Shown here: in pieces, positions 40,778 to 47,240 of the stretch
How the letters are laid out: each line of letters begins with the position of its first letter
Numbering within the stretch: position 1 is the first letter of the stretch
From: Loigolactobacillus jiayinensis
Lineage (GTDB): Bacteria > Bacillota > Bacilli > Lactobacillales > Lactobacillaceae
DNA: 64,000 nt
Reading direction: 5' to 3'
Assembly (NCBI RefSeq): GCF_003946445.1
Contig: NZ_RHOF01000017.1
Location: forward strand, 1-64,000
Position numbers and translations under genes: made by a program
The notes under the pieces: generated by a model
Seen by the model: the letters and a program-made list of their open reading frames with translations, nothing else
What the model was told of the DNA's origin: nothing
Databases searched by the model: none

Positions 40778-41758
40778 TTACTTAAATACTTGTGTCCGTA
40801 AAATAGCGATTATTAAAGCAACAATTTGTACACCTTGAAACAGCATCAAATTCTGAATTGCCGTTTCAAAAGTTGTTTCCTTAACTTGTTTACGGGAAAA
40901 AATACGAATGTTTTGCTGAATTTTCGGCAACGTCAGCCAAACCAATAAACTTTCTGGTGGCAATAAGCGTAAAATCACGCTGATACTAACACTGATAAAC
41001 GATAAATACAGTAAGGCTGCATACAGCGGCAACGCCCATTTAATCCCTAAATAATAGGGTAAGGTAAAGCGCTGATTGCGAATGTCCTGCGCCAGATCTG
41101 ACATATTATCTGCAAACATCACATTGGCAACCGTGAAAATATTAGGTAACCCTACTAACACCACAATAAGCAACGTGACTAGATTCCCATTAAGAGTAAA
41201 ACGTGGCCAATCAAAGAAAAAGCCCATTAATTGTTGCGGTGACACGTTAACATAGATCGTGATAAAGAAAACCCCGAACCCTTCTGCAACACCCGAAAGC
41301 AACTCGCCCAGCGGGAAACGTGAAAACGGAATGGGGCCAAACGTGTAGAAAATCGTCACAAAAACACCAGCACCACCGATAAATAATAGCAATAAATTAG
41401 TGCGCCAAACTAAGACTAAACCTAGACCACATGCTAGCACTAGAAAAGCTAACATTAAATTTAGCGCTCGGTGCGCCGATAAATGTTCACGCCCAATTAT
41501 GTTATACGTCGCGCGATAATGCTGATCAACGGCTAGCTTATAATCCTGCACATTATTAAATCCAGTGACAAAAAAGGCGATTGCCATCTGCGCAATAAAG
41601 TAAAGGAGTGAATTTAGCCAATCAACACTTTGAAAATAATAAAGTGAATATAATAAACCGAGTACAAATGGAATGGCACTGGCCGTTTTGGCATTCAGTC
41701 GAATAAACTCCAAAAATAGTTTAAACGTCATCGGCTTAACGGTTGTTTCTTTTGTCAT
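40778..41758 (-). CDS. dmkA: Polyprenyltransferase of the MenA/DmkA type (UbiA superfamily)
   Basis: A membrane prenyltransferase of 326 residues that attaches a polyprenyl chain to 1,4-dihydroxy-2-naphthoate to give demethylmenaquinone. The first Asp-rich-type motif reads GFNNVQDYKLAVDQHYR (near residue 67), a variant of NxxxDxxxD; the second is NVMFADNMSDLAQDIRNQR (near 218). Seven or more hydrophobic segments are visible. Neighbouring pplA, ndh2, eetAB and dmkB support the DmkA role in flavin-based extracellular electron transfer. DHNA would have to come from outside unless men genes lie elsewhere. Confidence 0.85.
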   Translation of the reverse strand: MTKETTVKPMTFKLFLEFIRLNAKTASAIPFVLGLLYSLYYFQSVDWLNSLLYFIAQMAIAFFVTGFNNVQDYKLAVDQHYRATYNIIGREHLSAHRALNLMLAFLVLACGLGLVLVWRTNLLLLFIGGAGVFVTIFYTFGPIPFSRFPLGELLSGVAEGFGVFFITIYVNVSPQQLMGFFFDWPRFTLNGNLVTLLIVVLVGLPNIFTVANVMFADNMSDLAQDIRNQRFTLPYYLGIKWALPLYAALLYLSFISVSISVILRLLPPESLLVWLTLPKIQQNIRIFSRKQVKETTFETAIQNLMLFQGVQIVALIIAILRTQVFK

Positions 41759-41847
41759 TTTCTTCTCCCTTATAAAAATAAAATAGGAACGTGGCCAACT
41801 TGCACCACATTCCTATTCTATTAGTAGACCGTTAACAGTACAACTAC

Positions 41848-42756
41848 CTATTCAGCATAAACGTAATTGTTAACTTTAATGGCACCCTTGCTGCCATTTT
41901 GTGCTGCGTTAACTAATTGTGCGGAATAGAGCTTGAAAGTGTTTGAAGTTTCAGTTGCACCAGAAACAACTTTTACGTTTTGATAAGTTGTTGCGGATTT
42001 ACCCTTAAGGTCTTTATTTAAATCAGGAATATATTCCTTAGGGCCAACGCCACTTTTAGCCTTCATTTGCTTTTCATAAGCGGCATCCTTAGTCTTGGAC
42101 TTGCCATTCTTATTCACGTAATCCATATTTGACTTAGTCACTTTACCCTTTTTATTAACAGTGATCGCCATCGTCATCCGATAACCATGTGAATAATTTT
42201 GTTCAGCTAATTTATAAGTGCCGGTCTTCATTTTCTTACCGTTATTGATCACAATTGTCTTCGTCTTGCCTGCTTGGGCAGCTTGGACTAATTGTTGCGC
42301 ATAGTTCTTAAAGTCATTTGATGATTCAGTTGCCCCAGATACAACTGCAATTGCCTCAGTATCAGACCCATTTGTCGTAAATGATTTATTCAATTCTGGA
42401 ATATATTCAGCTGGTCCAACGCCACTTTTAGCCTTCATTGATTTCTCATAATCGGCATCTTTGGTTTTGGAATTGCCATCTTTATCCACGTAATCATAAG
42501 TCGTCGCTGTAACCTTGCCGTCCTTATCAACGGTCATCGACATTTTCACCTTATACCCGTGACTGTAATTTTTCTCCTCTAACTTATAAGTACCAGCCTT
42601 CATCGTCTTACCAGCAGTGACTTTCTGCTGTGTTACTGAACTTGATTCTGCTGACGAGCTAGATGAATCAGCGGCCTGAACTGGCATTGCTGCGGCTAAC
42701 GTCAAAGCTGACATAGCCACAACCGATAAGCTTGTGACAAATTTGCCTAATTTCAT
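41848..42756 (-). CDS. pplA: Extracellular electron transfer flavoprotein PplA-like
   Basis: A secreted 302-residue protein with two tandem FMN-binding domains (about residues 50-165 and 175-290). Each ends in a flavinylation-type motif, AVVSGATESSN and KVVSGATETSN, where FMN would be attached to the Thr of SGAT. In the FLEET pathway PplA passes electrons to extracellular acceptors. The signal peptide ends in AAAMPVQAADSS, a type I cleavage site. There is no lipobox Cys, unlike the Listeria PplA lipoprotein, and no LPxTG. Ser-rich linker from residue 31. Divergent from ndh2. Confidence 0.85.
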   Translation of the reverse strand: MKLGKFVTSLSVVAMSALTLAAAMPVQAADSSSSSAESSSVTQQKVTAGKTMKAGTYKLEEKNYSHGYKVKMSMTVDKDGKVTATTYDYVDKDGNSKTKDADYEKSMKAKSGVGPAEYIPELNKSFTTNGSDTEAIAVVSGATESSNDFKNYAQQLVQAAQAGKTKTIVINNGKKMKTGTYKLAEQNYSHGYRMTMAITVNKKGKVTKSNMDYVNKNGKSKTKDAAYEKQMKAKSGVGPKEYIPDLNKDLKGKSATTYQNVKVVSGATETSNTFKLYSAQLVNAAQNGSKGAIKVNNYVYAE

Positions 42757-42805
42757 GATATGTTTCCCCCACCTTCATAAATTTGTGTTTAACTTCACAC
42801 AGTTA

Positions 42806-42833
42806 AGTATATTACATTCTTAATCATAATCAA
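42806..42833 (-). promoter_or_regulatory. pplA promoter
   Basis: On the minus strand TTGATT (42828-42833), a 16-nt spacer and TATACT (42806-42811), about 50 nt before the ATG. Confidence 0.6.
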
Positions 42834-43020
42834 GCTAAAGACGGTTTGCATGAGAAAACGTTTTAATTATAATGAGTCTTTTTTAATCTAAAATCTAAAC
42901 ACCTAGTTTTAGAATAAATGTAAGCGTGCTCTAAAGCGCGATACAGTTAAAAATAAATTTTACCGTAAATATCGCCTTTTTTGACCATTTATGCGTTAAA
43001 ATAAGTCTATATAATTAATT

Positions 43021-43079
43021 GTACCTGCACCTTATTTTTGGTCTAATTATTCTGAATTCTTTTTTGGTACCTGTACCTT
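43021..43079. repeat. Direct repeat in the pplA-ndh2 control region
   Basis: GTACCTGCACCTT (43021-43033) and GTACCTGTACCTT (43067-43079) differ at one base and start 46 nt apart. The second lies inside the near-palindrome GGTACCTGTACC. Confidence 0.5.
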
Positions 43080-43097
43080 TTATTTATACCGACCTCT

Positions 43098-43119
43098 TTT
43101 GTCTATACCGATAGACAAA
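43098..43119. promoter_or_regulatory. Operator-like inverted repeat over the ndh2 -35 box
   Basis: TTTGTCTAT-ACCG-ATAGACAAA has two exact 9-nt arms and covers the ndh2 -35 hexamer. A TATACCGA sequence is also found just upstream at 43086. Repressor binding here would block ndh2. Confidence 0.5.
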
Positions 43120-43140
43120 GCCGCTTCAATTCTGTATAAT
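43112..43140 (+). promoter_or_regulatory. ndh2 promoter
   Basis: TAGACA (43112-43117), a 17-nt spacer and consensus TATAAT (43135-43140). Confidence 0.75.
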
Positions 43141-43228
43141 TTACCTAATATCACGCTTGTACTATTTTTAATTTTTATTTTATTGTGAAATTTTTATTCT
43201 ATCTGCAATTATTAAGGAGTGTTTATTT

Positions 43229-45109
43229 ATGGCTGAGAAAAATATTGTAGTGCTGGGGGCTGGCTTTGCCGGTGTAGCAGCTACAAGACGCTTAGCAAAA
43301 CGATTCAAAAAAAATCATGACGTGCATATCACACTCATTGATCGTCATTCTTACATGACGTATATGACTGAGCTACACGAAGTTGCCACTGATCGGGTTC
43401 CTTTGGAATCTGTTCAATACGATCTAGGACGATTATTTGCCCATAAAAAGAACGTTTCATTGGTTACAGATAATGTAACTAAAGTTGACCATGACAAAAA
43501 CGTGGTCACCACTGAACATGGTCGCTACAACTATGATTATCTGATCTTAGCAATGGGTGCTGAATCTAACGACTTTGGTACCCCTGGCGTCAAGGAACAT
43601 GGCTTTAGTCTATGGTCCTTTGAAGATGCCGTTAAGATCAAGGAACATATTAAGGCCACGGTTGCAGCAGCAGCCTTAGAGCACGATGAAGCTAAGCGTA
43701 AAGCAATGCTGACCTTTGTCGTTGTCGGCGGTGGTTTTACTGGTGTTGAAACTATCGGTGAAATGATTGACTGGCGCCCAATTCTAGCTAAAGAAAATAA
43801 AATTGATCCTAGCGAAATCACGTTGATCCTCGATGAAGCTGTCCCAACAATTTTGAATATGTTAGATCGCCCAGATGCTGATTTAGCATTACGTTTCATG
43901 AAGAAAAAAGGCGTTGACGTTCGTACTAGCACACCAATTACTGAAATTGGTGCTGACTACATGACCTTAAAAGATGGCAACCATGTCCCAACCCATACCG
44001 TTATCTGGACTGCTGGTTTAAAAGCCAACACTGATACTAGCGATTTTGATATGGAACAAGGCCGTGCTGGCCGCTTGGTCACTAACGAATTCATGCAATC
44101 AAAACAATATGCCAATACCTATGTGGCCGGTGATTTATCACTGAACACTAACGAAGGCGATCGTGGCACACCACAAATCGTTGAGGCTGCAGAACAAACC
44201 GGTAACACAGCTGCGGAACATATCGTTGCAACTATTAATGGCACCACACCGAAACCGCTGAAAAGTAGTTATTCTGGCTTTGTTGTTTCAATTGGTGCTC
44301 ATTACAGTGTCGCCAACGTATTTGGCAGTATCCATCTAAGTGGTTGGTTCGGTACTATTATGAAACACATGATCAATTTATTATATTTCTTTACCACCTT
44401 TGCTGGTTACTATATTTTCCAATACAGCATGCACGAGTTCTTCCGTAATCGTCATGGCCGTAATCCATTCTGGGGACATATTTCTCGCTATGGTAACGTT
44501 TTGTGGAGTGTCCCAGCACGAATTTTCTACGCTTCCATGTGGTTAGTTGACTGCTGGTACAAGATTCAAGGTAGTGGCTCTTGGTTTAATGGTAAATTAC
44601 GCTTACCTTTCACTTGGCTCTATCCAAAAGTAACCACTAGTGGTGCCTCAGAAGCTGCTGGCACTGCCAAAAAGGCAGTTGAAACTGCTGCAGCCGCACC
44701 AACTAATGAATTTTTCAGCTTATCTTATGACTATGGTAAACAACCAATGATGATTTTCAAGCATTTACCAAGTTGGTATGAAAGTGTTACGAAATTCTTC
44801 ATTCCTAATAAGCAAACTGCCCTGTTCATGCAAGAATTTATGACTATCGTTGAAATTGCTTTAGCCGTCTGTATCTTACTTGGTCTGTTCACTTGGTTAG
44901 CTAACGCAATTACAATTGGTCTCGTTGTTGTCTTTTGTTTATCCGGTATGTTCTATTGGGTCAACATGTGGATGCCATTTATGGCACTAGCCTTAATGAA
45001 CGGTTCTGGTCGTGCATTTGGTCTCGATTTCTGGGTTGTGCCGTGGTTACAAAAGCATCTCGGTCACTGGTGGTATGGTGATCTTAAGTCAATTTACAGT
45101 AAAAATTAA
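43229..45109 (+). CDS. ndh2: Type II NADH dehydrogenase of the extracellular electron transfer pathway
   Basis: A membrane-bound FAD enzyme that oxidises NADH and reduces a quinone. Residues 1 to about 360 form the Ndh2 core: FAD motif VLGAGFAGVAATRRL (residue 8 on), NAD motif VVVGGGFTGVETIGE (near 170), and the second FAD segment NTYVAGDLS (near 300). The C terminus (about 370-626) is a membrane extension with several hydrophobic segments, as in the 600-plus-residue Ndh2 of FLEET loci, and is far longer than standard Ndh2 (about 400). AAGGAG precedes the ATG. It is followed by a terminator before eetA. Confidence 0.92.
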   Translation: MAEKNIVVLGAGFAGVAATRRLAKRFKKNHDVHITLIDRHSYMTYMTELHEVATDRVPLESVQYDLGRLFAHKKNVSLVTDNVTKVDHDKNVVTTEHGRYNYDYLILAMGAESNDFGTPGVKEHGFSLWSFEDAVKIKEHIKATVAAAALEHDEAKRKAMLTFVVVGGGFTGVETIGEMIDWRPILAKENKIDPSEITLILDEAVPTILNMLDRPDADLALRFMKKKGVDVRTSTPITEIGADYMTLKDGNHVPTHTVIWTAGLKANTDTSDFDMEQGRAGRLVTNEFMQSKQYANTYVAGDLSLNTNEGDRGTPQIVEAAEQTGNTAAEHIVATINGTTPKPLKSSYSGFVVSIGAHYSVANVFGSIHLSGWFGTIMKHMINLLYFFTTFAGYYIFQYSMHEFFRNRHGRNPFWGHISRYGNVLWSVPARIFYASMWLVDCWYKIQGSGSWFNGKLRLPFTWLYPKVTTSGASEAAGTAKKAVETAAAAPTNEFFSLSYDYGKQPMMIFKHLPSWYESVTKFFIPNKQTALFMQEFMTIVEIALAVCILLGLFTWLANAITIGLVVVFCLSGMFYWVNMWMPFMALALMNGSGRAFGLDFWVVPWLQKHLGHWWYGDLKSIYSKN

Positions 45110-45135
45110 CAATTACAGTCAAATCTTTCACGGGG

Positions 45136-45174
45136 ATGGTTCTGGGGTGACTTACCCAGAGCCATTCTTTTTTT
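45136..45174 (+). terminator. Terminator between ndh2 and eetA
   Basis: ATGG-TCTGGG pairs with CCCAGA-CCAT and seven T follow. eetA is only 40 nt further, so some read-through or a separate promoter is needed. Confidence 0.8.
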
Positions 45175-45212
45175 AACAAAGATGCCTTGGCAATAGAATG
45201 GAGTAACCGCCC

Positions 45213-45656
45213 TTGGCTAAGAATAAATATCTTAAAATGATTCGCCCTTGGGACATCATTATTGTCGTCCTATTAGTAATCGGCTCCTTTACCCCACTAG
45301 TTATTTTTGCCTTACATGAAAAAGAGCAAGTGGCGGCCCATAATTCAGCGCCAACAACACAAGTTCGAACTGCCATTATCAGCCATAACGGTAAAAAATT
45401 GTATTCAATCAAGTTAACTGGACACAAGGGCTCAACCAAATACCGTTACCAAGCGCCTGATGGTGACTATAATGAAGTTGAAATCAAAGACAACAAAATT
45501 GCAATTGTCGATGCTAATTGTCAAGATCAGGTTTGTGTGCGCCGCGGCTGGATCTCCAAGCCAGGCCAAACAATCGTCTGCCTGCCCCACAAACTATTAA
45601 TTGAAATTAAGGTTAACCACGGCTCGCAAACTCAGGGTGGGATGGTCACCGAATGA
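45213..45656 (+). CDS. eetA: EetA, NusG domain II-containing membrane protein
   Basis: A 147-residue protein with one membrane segment (residues 14-34) and an extracytoplasmic NusG domain II-type fold. The conserved cysteines lie in DANCQDQVCVRRGWISKPGQ and IVCLPHKL (residues about 104-131). In Listeria, EetA with EetB is needed for electron transfer from Ndh2 to the surface. The start is TTG with GGAG at 45200-45203. The stop region overlaps the possible upstream start of eetB. Confidence 0.85.
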   Translation: MAKNKYLKMIRPWDIIIVVLLVIGSFTPLVIFALHEKEQVAAHNSAPTTQVRTAIISHNGKKLYSIKLTGHKGSTKYRYQAPDGDYNEVEIKDNKIAIVDANCQDQVCVRRGWISKPGQTIVCLPHKLLIEIKVNHGSQTQGGMVTE

Positions 45657-45670
45657 ATGAGGAAAAGTTA

Positions 45671-46273
45671 ATGACCCAACCTAAAATTCAAAAATATGTC
45701 TTTATTGCCTTGCTAGTAGCACAAGGGGTGATCATCGGCTTACTGGAACGGATGATTCCCTTTCCCTTTGCCTTTGCCCCTGGTGCTAAACTCGGCCTTG
45801 CCAATCTAATTACAATTGTTGCCTTATTTACAATGCCGTTTCGCGATAGTTTTCTACTGATGTGGATGCGTCTGATTTTGACCACACTTTTAGGTGGTAC
45901 CTTATCCACTTTTCTATATTCAGCTGGTGGTGCTGTTCTGAGCTACTTCGGCATGTTACTAGTTAAGCAACTAGGGCCAAAAAACGTTAGTATCATTGGT
46001 ATTTCAACGACTGGTGGTGTCCTGCACAACGTCGGTCAATTACTAATTGCCAGCTTGATTGCCCAGAGTTGGACCGTCATGCTGTACTTACCAATTTTAT
46101 CTTTTATTGGTGTTCTCGCCGGTATTGCAATTGGAATCTCTGCTAATTATTTGTTTGAACACGTGCGCACACTGACTTATCTCAAAGTGAGTTATGAGCA
46201 AATGCAGATTCAGAAGAAACACCACCGCCACAGATATCATTTAAAAAAGGAGGCGCGCTATGACAAAAATTAA
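45671..46273 (+). CDS. eetB: EetB, Gx transporter / heptaprenyl diphosphate synthase component I-like membrane protein
   Basis: A polytopic membrane protein of 200 residues (about five segments) of the Hpre_diP_synt_I family, found in FLEET loci as EetB. The N-terminal signature PFPFAFAPGAKLGLANLITI (near residue 30) is typical. The tail is His/Lys-rich (KKHHRHRYHLKKE). The frame begins at ATG 45653 overlapping eetA, but GAGGA 7 nt before ATG 45671 makes the latter more likely. It overlaps dmkB by 14 nt. Confidence 0.85.
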   Translation: MTQPKIQKYVFIALLVAQGVIIGLLERMIPFPFAFAPGAKLGLANLITIVALFTMPFRDSFLLMWMRLILTTLLGGTLSTFLYSAGGAVLSYFGMLLVKQLGPKNVSIIGISTTGGVLHNVGQLLIASLIAQSWTVMLYLPILSFIGVLAGIAIGISANYLFEHVRTLTYLKVSYEQMQIQKKHHRHRYHLKKEARYDKN

Positions 46274-47240
46274 TGCGATGTGGCAGCAGTATCCCCAGCT
46301 TTCGACAGAACTAATGGCAACACTGACCTTGATCGAACAAAATATTAAAACCCATGATCCGCAGGTTACAGCAGCGATTATTGATATGATCCACGCAGGT
46401 GGTAAATTATTACGCCCTGCTTATTGCCTTCTATTTTCGCAATTTCATGAAACCGACCGTCAGAAAATGATTGCGCTAGCTGCAGCAGTTGAAACGTTGC
46501 ATACAGCTACCTTGATTCATGATGATATCGTTGATGAATCTAATTTGCGCCGTAATCAGCCGACCATTCAAGCCCAATTTGGTAAGGATACCGCAGTTTA
46601 TGCTGGTGATTATTTATTCGTTGTCTGCTTTAAATTACTGGCACATTACGCTAGTGATTTACGCAGTATCCAAGTCAATTCTCGTAGCATGGAAAAGATC
46701 CTCAATGGTGAAATCCACCAAATGAAGATGCGCTACCAATTATCGATGACCTTAGACGACTATTTACTCCAAATTAAAGGCAAAACGGCACAACTTTTCA
46801 GTACCGCCTGCTTTATTGGTGCATACGAAAGTGGCAATAGTCAAAGCTTTGCCCGGCAAAGTGAACAAATCGGAATGGCAATCGGTACTGCTTTTCAAAT
46901 TGTTGACGATATTCTTGACTATCAACAAAGCAGCACGATCCTCGGTAAACCAGTACTGGAAGATGTCCGGCAGGGCGTTTATTCCGCCCCATTGGTTCTA
47001 GTGTTACAACAAGCAAATCCAGAATTATTAGCCTTATTGCAAAAGCGGGCAGCTATGACTGCAGCCGATTGTGAGCAAGTCCGGCAATTAGTCGTTGCTG
47101 CCGGTGGCGTTACTGCGGCCCAACAGTTAGCAACTAAGTATACTGAACATGCTTTAACGGCAATTCACAAGCTTCCTGCAGGCCAACCGCGTGTTGACTT
47201 GGAAAACCTGACCCAACAGTTACTCACCCGCAACTATTAA
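46260..47240 (+). CDS. dmkB: Polyprenyl diphosphate synthase (DmkB type)
   Basis: Builds the isoprenoid chain of the quinone from isopentenyl diphosphate. The 326 residues show the first Asp-rich motif LIHDDIVDESNLRRNQPT (near residue 85) and the second QIVDDILDYQ (near 214), both intact, plus GGKLLRPAY near 45. The strong site AAGGAGG lies inside eetB. It ends the eetA-eetB-dmkB unit with a terminator after it, and should supply the prenyl substrate to DmkA. Confidence 0.9.
   Translation: MTKINAMWQQYPQLSTELMATLTLIEQNIKTHDPQVTAAIIDMIHAGGKLLRPAYCLLFSQFHETDRQKMIALAAAVETLHTATLIHDDIVDESNLRRNQPTIQAQFGKDTAVYAGDYLFVVCFKLLAHYASDLRSIQVNSRSMEKILNGEIHQMKMRYQLSMTLDDYLLQIKGKTAQLFSTACFIGAYESGNSQSFARQSEQIGMAIGTAFQIVDDILDYQQSSTILGKPVLEDVRQGVYSAPLVLVLQQANPELLALLQKRAAMTAADCEQVRQLVVAAGGVTAAQQLATKYTEHALTAIHKLPAGQPRVDLENLTQQLLTRNY

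Follow-up and report, generated by a model that had tools for sequence, protein, structure and literature searches.

The stretch of DNA analyzed here (64,000 nt of the Loigolactobacillus jiayinensis genome, hereafter the window; its contig is C37 of the source genome, G000) contains a locus for flavin-based extracellular electron transfer (FLEET) from which the genes for the flavin transferase FmnB and for FmnA, an energy-coupling factor (ECF) T subunit, are missing. With a probability of about 0.58, we read it as a working FLEET chain that lacks its own operon-type FmnB (FmnB1) and in which an unlinked FmnB, from a clade of 27 Lactobacillaceae FmnB that we named FmnB2, would load an unanchored PplA through a remodelled active site. 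In such a chain, Ndh2 would pass NADH electrons to demethylmenaquinone made by DmkA and DmkB, EetB would export flavin adenine dinucleotide (FAD) with the shared housekeeping EcfT-EcfA1-EcfA2, and the lipoprotein FmnB2 would use the exported FAD to load PplA. The active site of FmnB2 keeps its Mg/FAD residues, but His273 is replaced by Tyr, Ser257 by Ala, and Arg262 by Gln, Lys, or His (residue numbers are those of Listeria FmnB). After cleavage, PplA would be set free instead of carrying a lipid anchor, and its positive charge may keep it at the wall; FmnB2 would have an additional, PplA-independent job. Judged from the sequences, such a split is nothing unusual in this genus; what is unusual is the enzyme behind it, an FmnB paralog in which the catalytic Ser, Arg, and His are missing.

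The interval from dmkA to dmkB contains no ApbE or EcfT open reading frame (ORF), and whole-genome searches (the 64 kb being annotated only in part) returned no ApbE- or CbiQ-family match on contig C37; all such matches fell on other contigs, in agreement with an earlier note on this DNA, which had seen fmnB and fmnA nowhere in the window. These searches found three ApbE genes in the source genome, on contigs C74, C44, and C76. The distant ApbE that the note had suggested thus exists: the C74 gene (G000:C74:17604-18695), the sole one of the three with a lipoprotein-type signal (LTAC, by eye), is the unlinked FmnB of this genome and belongs to FmnB2. The other two encode signal-less proteins and adjoin genes for a fumarate-reductase-like flavoprotein (C-terminal SGAS) and a PAS protein (three SGAS motifs), respectively. 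Sec export would keep a cytosolic ApbE away from PplA, and both were rejected as its transferase because they lack a signal and each stands beside its own SGAS protein. The PAS protein on C76 (L041:6688-7503, − strand) has a PAS_10 domain and a tail with three D-x-x-S-G-A-S motifs, lies beside the signal-less ApbE and a pyruvate-oxidase-like gene, and, by its motifs, looks like a naturally flavin-tagged sensor; no SGAS was seen in its 63% identical relative in G001 (L168:10012-10746).

The search for FmnA yielded three CbiQ-family genes in the source genome, on contigs C66, C95, and C49. By eye, one is ecfT, in an ecfA1A2T operon surrounded by ribosomal protein genes; another (C95, L038) belongs to a cobalamin biosynthesis operon that includes CbiMNQO-like genes; and the third (C49, L039) is found where lactate racemase genes adjoin nickel-type transport genes. 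No dedicated FmnA was found in this genome, since all three genes fall in housekeeping, cobalt, or nickel contexts. In Listeria, EetB is a subunit of the FAD exporter and acts in export with FmnA and EcfA/EcfA' (PMC9973259, in part); as no FmnA was found here, EetB would have to use EcfT. A single CbiQ-family protein was present in 9 of 51 EetB-bearing genomes (among 120 genomes), which indicates that EetB can occur without a dedicated FmnA. The statement in the earlier note that fmnA usually sits in the locus did not hold: an EcfT-type gene was present within only 15 of 80 named FLEET loci (the best 80 of at least 571 matches, some with flanks clipped by contig ends).

Next, we analyzed the sequence of the unlinked transferase. 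In a tree of 85 sequences, the 27 FmnB2 were nested inside FmnB (bootstrap 100, Shimodaira-Hasegawa-like approximate likelihood ratio test 99, clade present in 100% of 200 bootstrap trees). Sequences NL215, G018, and G130 and pieces shorter than 300 aa (G349 and G124) were left out of the tree and tables, and most named FmnB rows were also left out of the tree to keep it small; a six-frame reading of G018 and G130 gave S, R, and H. In all 27 FmnB2, Ser257 is replaced by Ala, Arg262 by Gln, Lys, or His, His273 by Tyr, and Thr305 by Asn, and position 272 is Ile; in 26 of them, Phe142 is also replaced by Leu and Asn83 by Thr. The unlinked FmnB2 of the source genome accordingly lacks the catalytic Ser257, Arg262, and His273, all three of which are kept in each of the 109 distinct FmnB1 sequences (Thr305 in 108). 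The Mg/FAD residues Lys190, Asn216, Arg240, Asp301, and Ser304 are unchanged in every FmnB2. As groups were labelled by the 257/262 stretch, those two columns separate by construction, while His273, Thr305, Phe142, and the tree are independent of the labels; numbers below about 233 carry a hand shift of two residues against a Listeria ilorinensis ruler sequence. Only two cytosolic ApbE among the aligned sequences fell outside the two labels, and one further FmnB from each of 20 other-family genomes has the Ser, Arg, and His. Both FmnB types occur in five Lacticaseibacillus genomes (G055, G125, G127, G129, and G136), and the FmnB of Lacticaseibacillus group g12 is identical to those of L. saniviri and L. 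baoqingensis. Searches of the open-licence literature, read in part as titles and abstract openings, turned up no report of a His-less FmnB or of extracellular electron transfer in Loigolactobacillus.

The unlinked FmnB2 matches PF02424 (267.8 bits), with the ApbE fold and the FAD/Mg-binding residues present. A Foldseek comparison of its structural model (mean predicted local distance difference test [pLDDT] score, 76) with 7esa gave template modeling scores of 0.79/0.88; pLDDT falls below 50 at positions 253–268, the stretch with most of the replaced residues, and the model therefore confirms the fold only and is uninformative on active-site geometry. The ratio of nonsynonymous to synonymous substitution rates (dN/dS) was 0.013, 0.016, and 0.046 in the three computable pairs, with dS above 2 in two of them; the value of 0.046 came with a dS of 0.64 (G068 versus G032), and among G000, G002, G003, and G004 dN was 0.04–0.07 with dS saturated. 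These low ratios argue against decay, and by this measure FmnB2 is a conserved gene under selection. We withdrew the proposal that FmnB2 occupies a shared old place beside a pseudouridine-synthase-like gene in Lacticaseibacillus and Loigolactobacillus; the Lacticaseibacillus neighbour is 44–45% identical to an L. iwatensis gene located elsewhere, versus 35–39% to the one near FmnB2.

To relate FmnB2 to PplA, we searched 397 Lactobacillaceae genomes and found FmnB (E ≤ 1e-90) in 67 and PplA (E ≤ 1e-15) in 55. PplA was present in all 45 FmnB1 genomes; among the 22 FmnB2-only genomes, 10 had PplA and 12 had no PplA match (Fisher p 1e-7, kinship ignored). Every one of the 55 PplA genomes carries FmnB1 or FmnB2. 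Those without an intact FmnB1 form four groups: three Loigolactobacillus genomes, G032/G068/G218, G036/G174/G220, and G124. Nine of these 10 FmnB2 genomes had no FmnB1 match, six of them also when searched at 1e-10; for G174, G218, and G220, FmnB1 was searched at 1e-90 alone and the FLEET loci were read, and a broken FmnB1 can be missed at 1e-90, as that of G124 was. All PplA [ST]GAT sites read in the 10 genomes are kept (the PplA of G220 is partial). Since PplA was never seen without an FmnB gene and FmnB2 is the sole intact FmnB in these 10 genomes, FmnB2 probably still serves PplA, and on balance it is somewhat more probable that it is an active, rewired transferase than that it is not. In the FLEET locus of G124, a Lacticaseibacillus (L339:3905-4973), FmnB1 is split into two ORFs; the genome has an intact FmnB2 as well.

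The PplA of the source genome is a full-length match to lipo_FMN_PplA, with two domains that bind flavin mononucleotide (FMN) and two SGAT sites. In G000, G003, and G004, its N-terminus has no Cys in the first 110 residues, and thus no lipobox cysteine as a lipoprotein anchor, and ends in ...MPVQAADSS, an apparent signal peptidase I type signal by eye. By pattern, every one of the 63 PplA ORFs in the named loci has a lipobox. In a wider set of 67 genomes, read without G127 and G279, 57 have one (G349 among the 57 is unsafe, as its gene looks cut); those without one are G000, G003, G004, G036, G174, G220, G223, G244, and G097, with the gene of G293 being cut. In the source PplA, SGAT is preceded by A at the first site and by K at the second; D or E is usual elsewhere, with Q, S, or A also found. 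The dN/dS of PplA was 0.03–0.04 (dS 1.3–1.8). No PplA match was found at 1e-8 in five of the eight Loigolactobacillus genomes, whereas Ndh2 and EetB are kept in all eight.

Several of these observations, together with published ones, weigh against FmnB2 loading an unanchored PplA. Lipobox loss is not specific to FmnB2, as G223 and G244 (with FmnB1) and G097 lack it and the FmnB2-only genomes G032, G068, and G218 keep it; the presence of lipobox-less PplA in several lineages, some with FmnB1, indicates that the anchor was lost repeatedly and independently of FmnB2. The seven unanchored PplA for which charge was computed are basic (+15 to +27), versus −10 to +18 for eight lipoprotein PplA, with the Loigolactobacillus values (+15 to +17) inside the range of the anchored proteins. 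In the source PplA, both SGAT sites have lost the acidic residue that usually precedes them. FmnB2 also survives in genomes without a PplA match. Listeria EcfT is apparently unable to replace FmnA for FAD export (PMC9973259, in part). In Listeria FmnB, the mutants K190A, R262A, and H273A are dead and S257A is weaker (PMC8906456, in part), and FmnB2 may be inactive because R262A and H273A abolish the activity of the Listeria enzyme and S257A reduces it. On the motif itself, one reported case of Asp to Ala ahead of SGAT had minor effects (PMC12052999, section 8, in part), and FmnB1-paired PplA can have Q/Q (G349 and G293) or S/Q (G399) at these positions, which indicates that the loss is not specific to FmnB2. 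The wider genome table thus broke two statements that we rejected as too strong, namely that lipobox loss and loss of the acidic motif residue go with FmnB2.

Free flavins can shuttle electrons. We consider it unlikely, though still a serious rival, that FmnB2 has lost FMN transfer and that PplA here is not covalently flavinylated, with electrons passing through Ndh2, quinone, and free flavins and PplA being a relic or a non-covalent FMN binder. FmnB2 throughout has substitutions at residues whose change to alanine inactivates Listeria FmnB, neither site of the source PplA has its acidic residue, most genomes of the genus have no PplA match, and PplA of L. plantarum was dispensable for anode reduction (PMC8837199, in part). 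However, PplA is under purifying selection with both SGAT sites kept in all three species, none of the 55 PplA genomes lacks an FmnB gene, and G032 and G068 have canonical PplA motifs though FmnB2 is the only ApbE match in either genome at 1e-10.

The 12 FmnB2-only genomes without a PplA match indicate that FmnB2 has another role or client. This, the conserved FAD/Mg residues, and a predicted PF12822-family ECF S-component near FmnB2 (0.9 kb away in the source genome and G003, 2.8 kb in G002, 3.2 kb in G004, and 6.4 kb in G005) would fit an FmnB2 whose main work is extracellular FAD processing, either as an FAD pyrophosphatase of the Treponema Ftp kind or as a partner in flavin scavenging. It would then supply FMN for uptake or for free-flavin shuttling and serve PplA secondarily. 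We regard this as improbable. Listeria FmnB is proposed to use the general-base His, lost in FmnB2, for hydrolysing FAD as well (PMC8906456, in part), no relative of the PF12822 protein was flagged around FmnB2 in 10 loci of other genera (by eye, a BioY-like ORF lies ~3 kb away in G198 and G220), and a diverged secreted SGAT client can escape PplA searches. An equally doubtful idea is that FmnB2 is no longer a transferase but a membrane-anchored ApbE-fold protein that holds EetB-supplied FAD non-covalently and is itself an electron carrier, partly in place of covalently flavinylated PplA; if true, it would explain both the retention of FmnB2 without PplA and the replacement of catalytic residues alongside kept FAD/Mg-binding ones.

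As for other clients, G171 and G067, which have no PplA match, encode a secreted double-SGAT protein 4.8 kb from FmnB2 (L334:3260-4360 and L159:15157-16257). It matches no Pfam family and shares 42–48% identity with the second PplA that some enterococci have. The PplA searches reported it in neither genome, nor did PF04205 in G067; "no PplA match" is therefore not equal to "no client." Apart from this protein, no other client was found near FmnB2 in the 10 loci of other genera, and in L. iwatensis G007, also without a PplA match, no secreted double-SGAT protein was found in the starts of 20 contigs (358,132 bases of about 2.6 Mb).

We then asked how common the separation of fmnB from its locus is. 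We take pplA to be the pheromone precursor gene of a 2019 coupling study. Among the 80 named FLEET loci, PplA was present in 58 and FmnB too in 55 of these; the flank of L179, one of the remaining three, is short on that side. In agreement, the 2019 study described a PplA-type pheromone precursor gene as positionally coupled with apbE "with almost no exceptions" (PMC7074142, in part). In Loigolactobacillus, fmnB was absent from the stretch of the FLEET locus read in all eight genomes (G003, G005, and G006 being cut by contig ends), and an unlinked FmnB, 71–100% identical, was found in seven, with none found in G001. The earlier note had held that fmnA-fmnB lying just beyond their usual order in all sister species would make the split unremarkable, and our result comes near to this, with an unlinked FmnB in seven genomes and G001 alone having none. 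Because fmnB is missing from the stretch of the locus read in all eight genomes, the split is a genus trait and unremarkable by itself; it is not unique to Loigolactobacillus, as PplA also occurs together with an unlinked FmnB in G032 and G068, which belong to another genus. The source genome is in 127 contigs, and fmnA and fmnB1 might simply lie in an unsequenced gap. This is very improbable, given a completeness of 99.98% and genus genomes with neither an FmnB in the locus nor an FmnB1 match; we rejected a missing contig because the single-contig genome G004 shows the same result.

The locus itself (Table 1) consists of six ORFs at 40778-47240, all intact and each matching its expected FLEET family in profile searches, with pplA and dmkA divergent from ndh2. 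The set of ndh2, pplA, eetA, eetB, dmkA, and dmkB is complete, in line with the earlier description of a six-gene set in this orientation. Ndh2 and EetB are present in all eight Loigolactobacillus genomes, and hence the locus is not a chance assembly; Ndh2 is 80–96% identical in the other seven, matching as two stretches in three of them. Ahead of ndh2, we read a predicted promoter (TAGACA-17 bp-TATAAT) whose −35 is overlapped by a 9-4-9 palindrome, TTTGTCTAT-ACCG-ATAGACAAA, at about 43105-43126. Of six intergenic regions compared by eye, only that of the source genome has a perfect copy, with imperfect ones in G003 and G004, and the palindrome is perhaps a candidate operator.

Table 1. Features of the FLEET locus (positions in the window)
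Feature	Location	Strand	Basis
dmkA, 1,4-dihydroxy-2-naphthoate prenyltransferase (UbiA/MenA)	40778..41758	-	PF01040 65.5 bits over cut-off; NF004752 289.6 vs cut-off 289
pplA, double FMN-binding flavoprotein	41848..42756	-	PF04205; NCBIfam lipo_FMN_PplA 383.7 vs cut-off 325 bits
Divergent pplA/ndh2 promoter region	42757..43228	.	Read from sequence
ndh2, type II NADH dehydrogenase, C-terminal membrane domain	43229..45109	+	PF07992, pyridine-nucleotide dehydrogenase
eetA, NusG domain II (NusG_II) membrane protein	45213..45656	+	PF07009
eetB, ECF S-component-like protein	45653..46273	+	PF07456 158 bits
dmkB, polyprenyl diphosphate synthase	46260..47240	+	PF00348 219 bits

With regard to quinone supply, menB was found in seven of the eight Loigolactobacillus genomes (not in G006) versus none of six other genomes tested. 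In the source genome, it is accompanied by menE (TIGR01923 over cut-off) on contig C52 (L386:8895-11545), with a MenI-like thioesterase, below cut-off, divergent from them. The genome search that the earlier note had proposed, for ApbE/FmnB, FmnA, and men genes, thus yielded three ApbE genes, no dedicated FmnA, and menB plus menE. The note had left a choice between a distant ApbE and an altered pathway; the latter proved the better half, with the catalytic residues of FmnB2 replaced, PplA lipobox-less, and PplA unmatched in most of the genus.

The published mechanism of FmnB/ApbE rests on the catalytic His and, in FmnB, the Arg beside it, and the FmnB2 clade lacks both. As FmnB2 is the only export-signal ApbE found in genomes that keep PplA, either flavinylation works another way there or FLEET runs without it, and counting "ApbE present" may overstate the flavinylation capacity of Lactobacillaceae.

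Compared with known systems, the locus resembles the FLEET loci of Listeria and Lactiplantibacillus in having dmkA, pplA, ndh2, eetA, eetB, and dmkB with pplA divergent from ndh2 (dmkA lay outside the view in the Lactiplantibacillus loci compared) and differs in having neither fmnB nor fmnA in the locus and a PplA without a lipobox. A further difference is menB, which the source genome has and the Lactiplantibacillus genome tested (G044) lacks. Although the source PplA matches the NCBIfam lipo_FMN_PplA type over its full length and shares its two SGAT sites, it departs from it in lacking the lipobox and in having A/K rather than D/E before SGAT. FmnB2 resembles Treponema Ftp (TP0796) in its ApbE fold and as an extracytosolic lipoprotein (30–31% identity), but Ftp keeps the Ser, Arg, and His pair in the aligned region. 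The best solved relative of FmnB2 is Listeria monocytogenes FmnB (PDB 7ESA and 7F39; 51% identity, same fold), with which the protein of the source genome shares the lipoprotein-type signal, Lys190, Asn216, Asp301, and Ser304, and from which it differs in Ser257Ala, Arg262Lys, His272Ile, His273Tyr, and Thr305Asn, in its unlinked gene, and in its separate clade.

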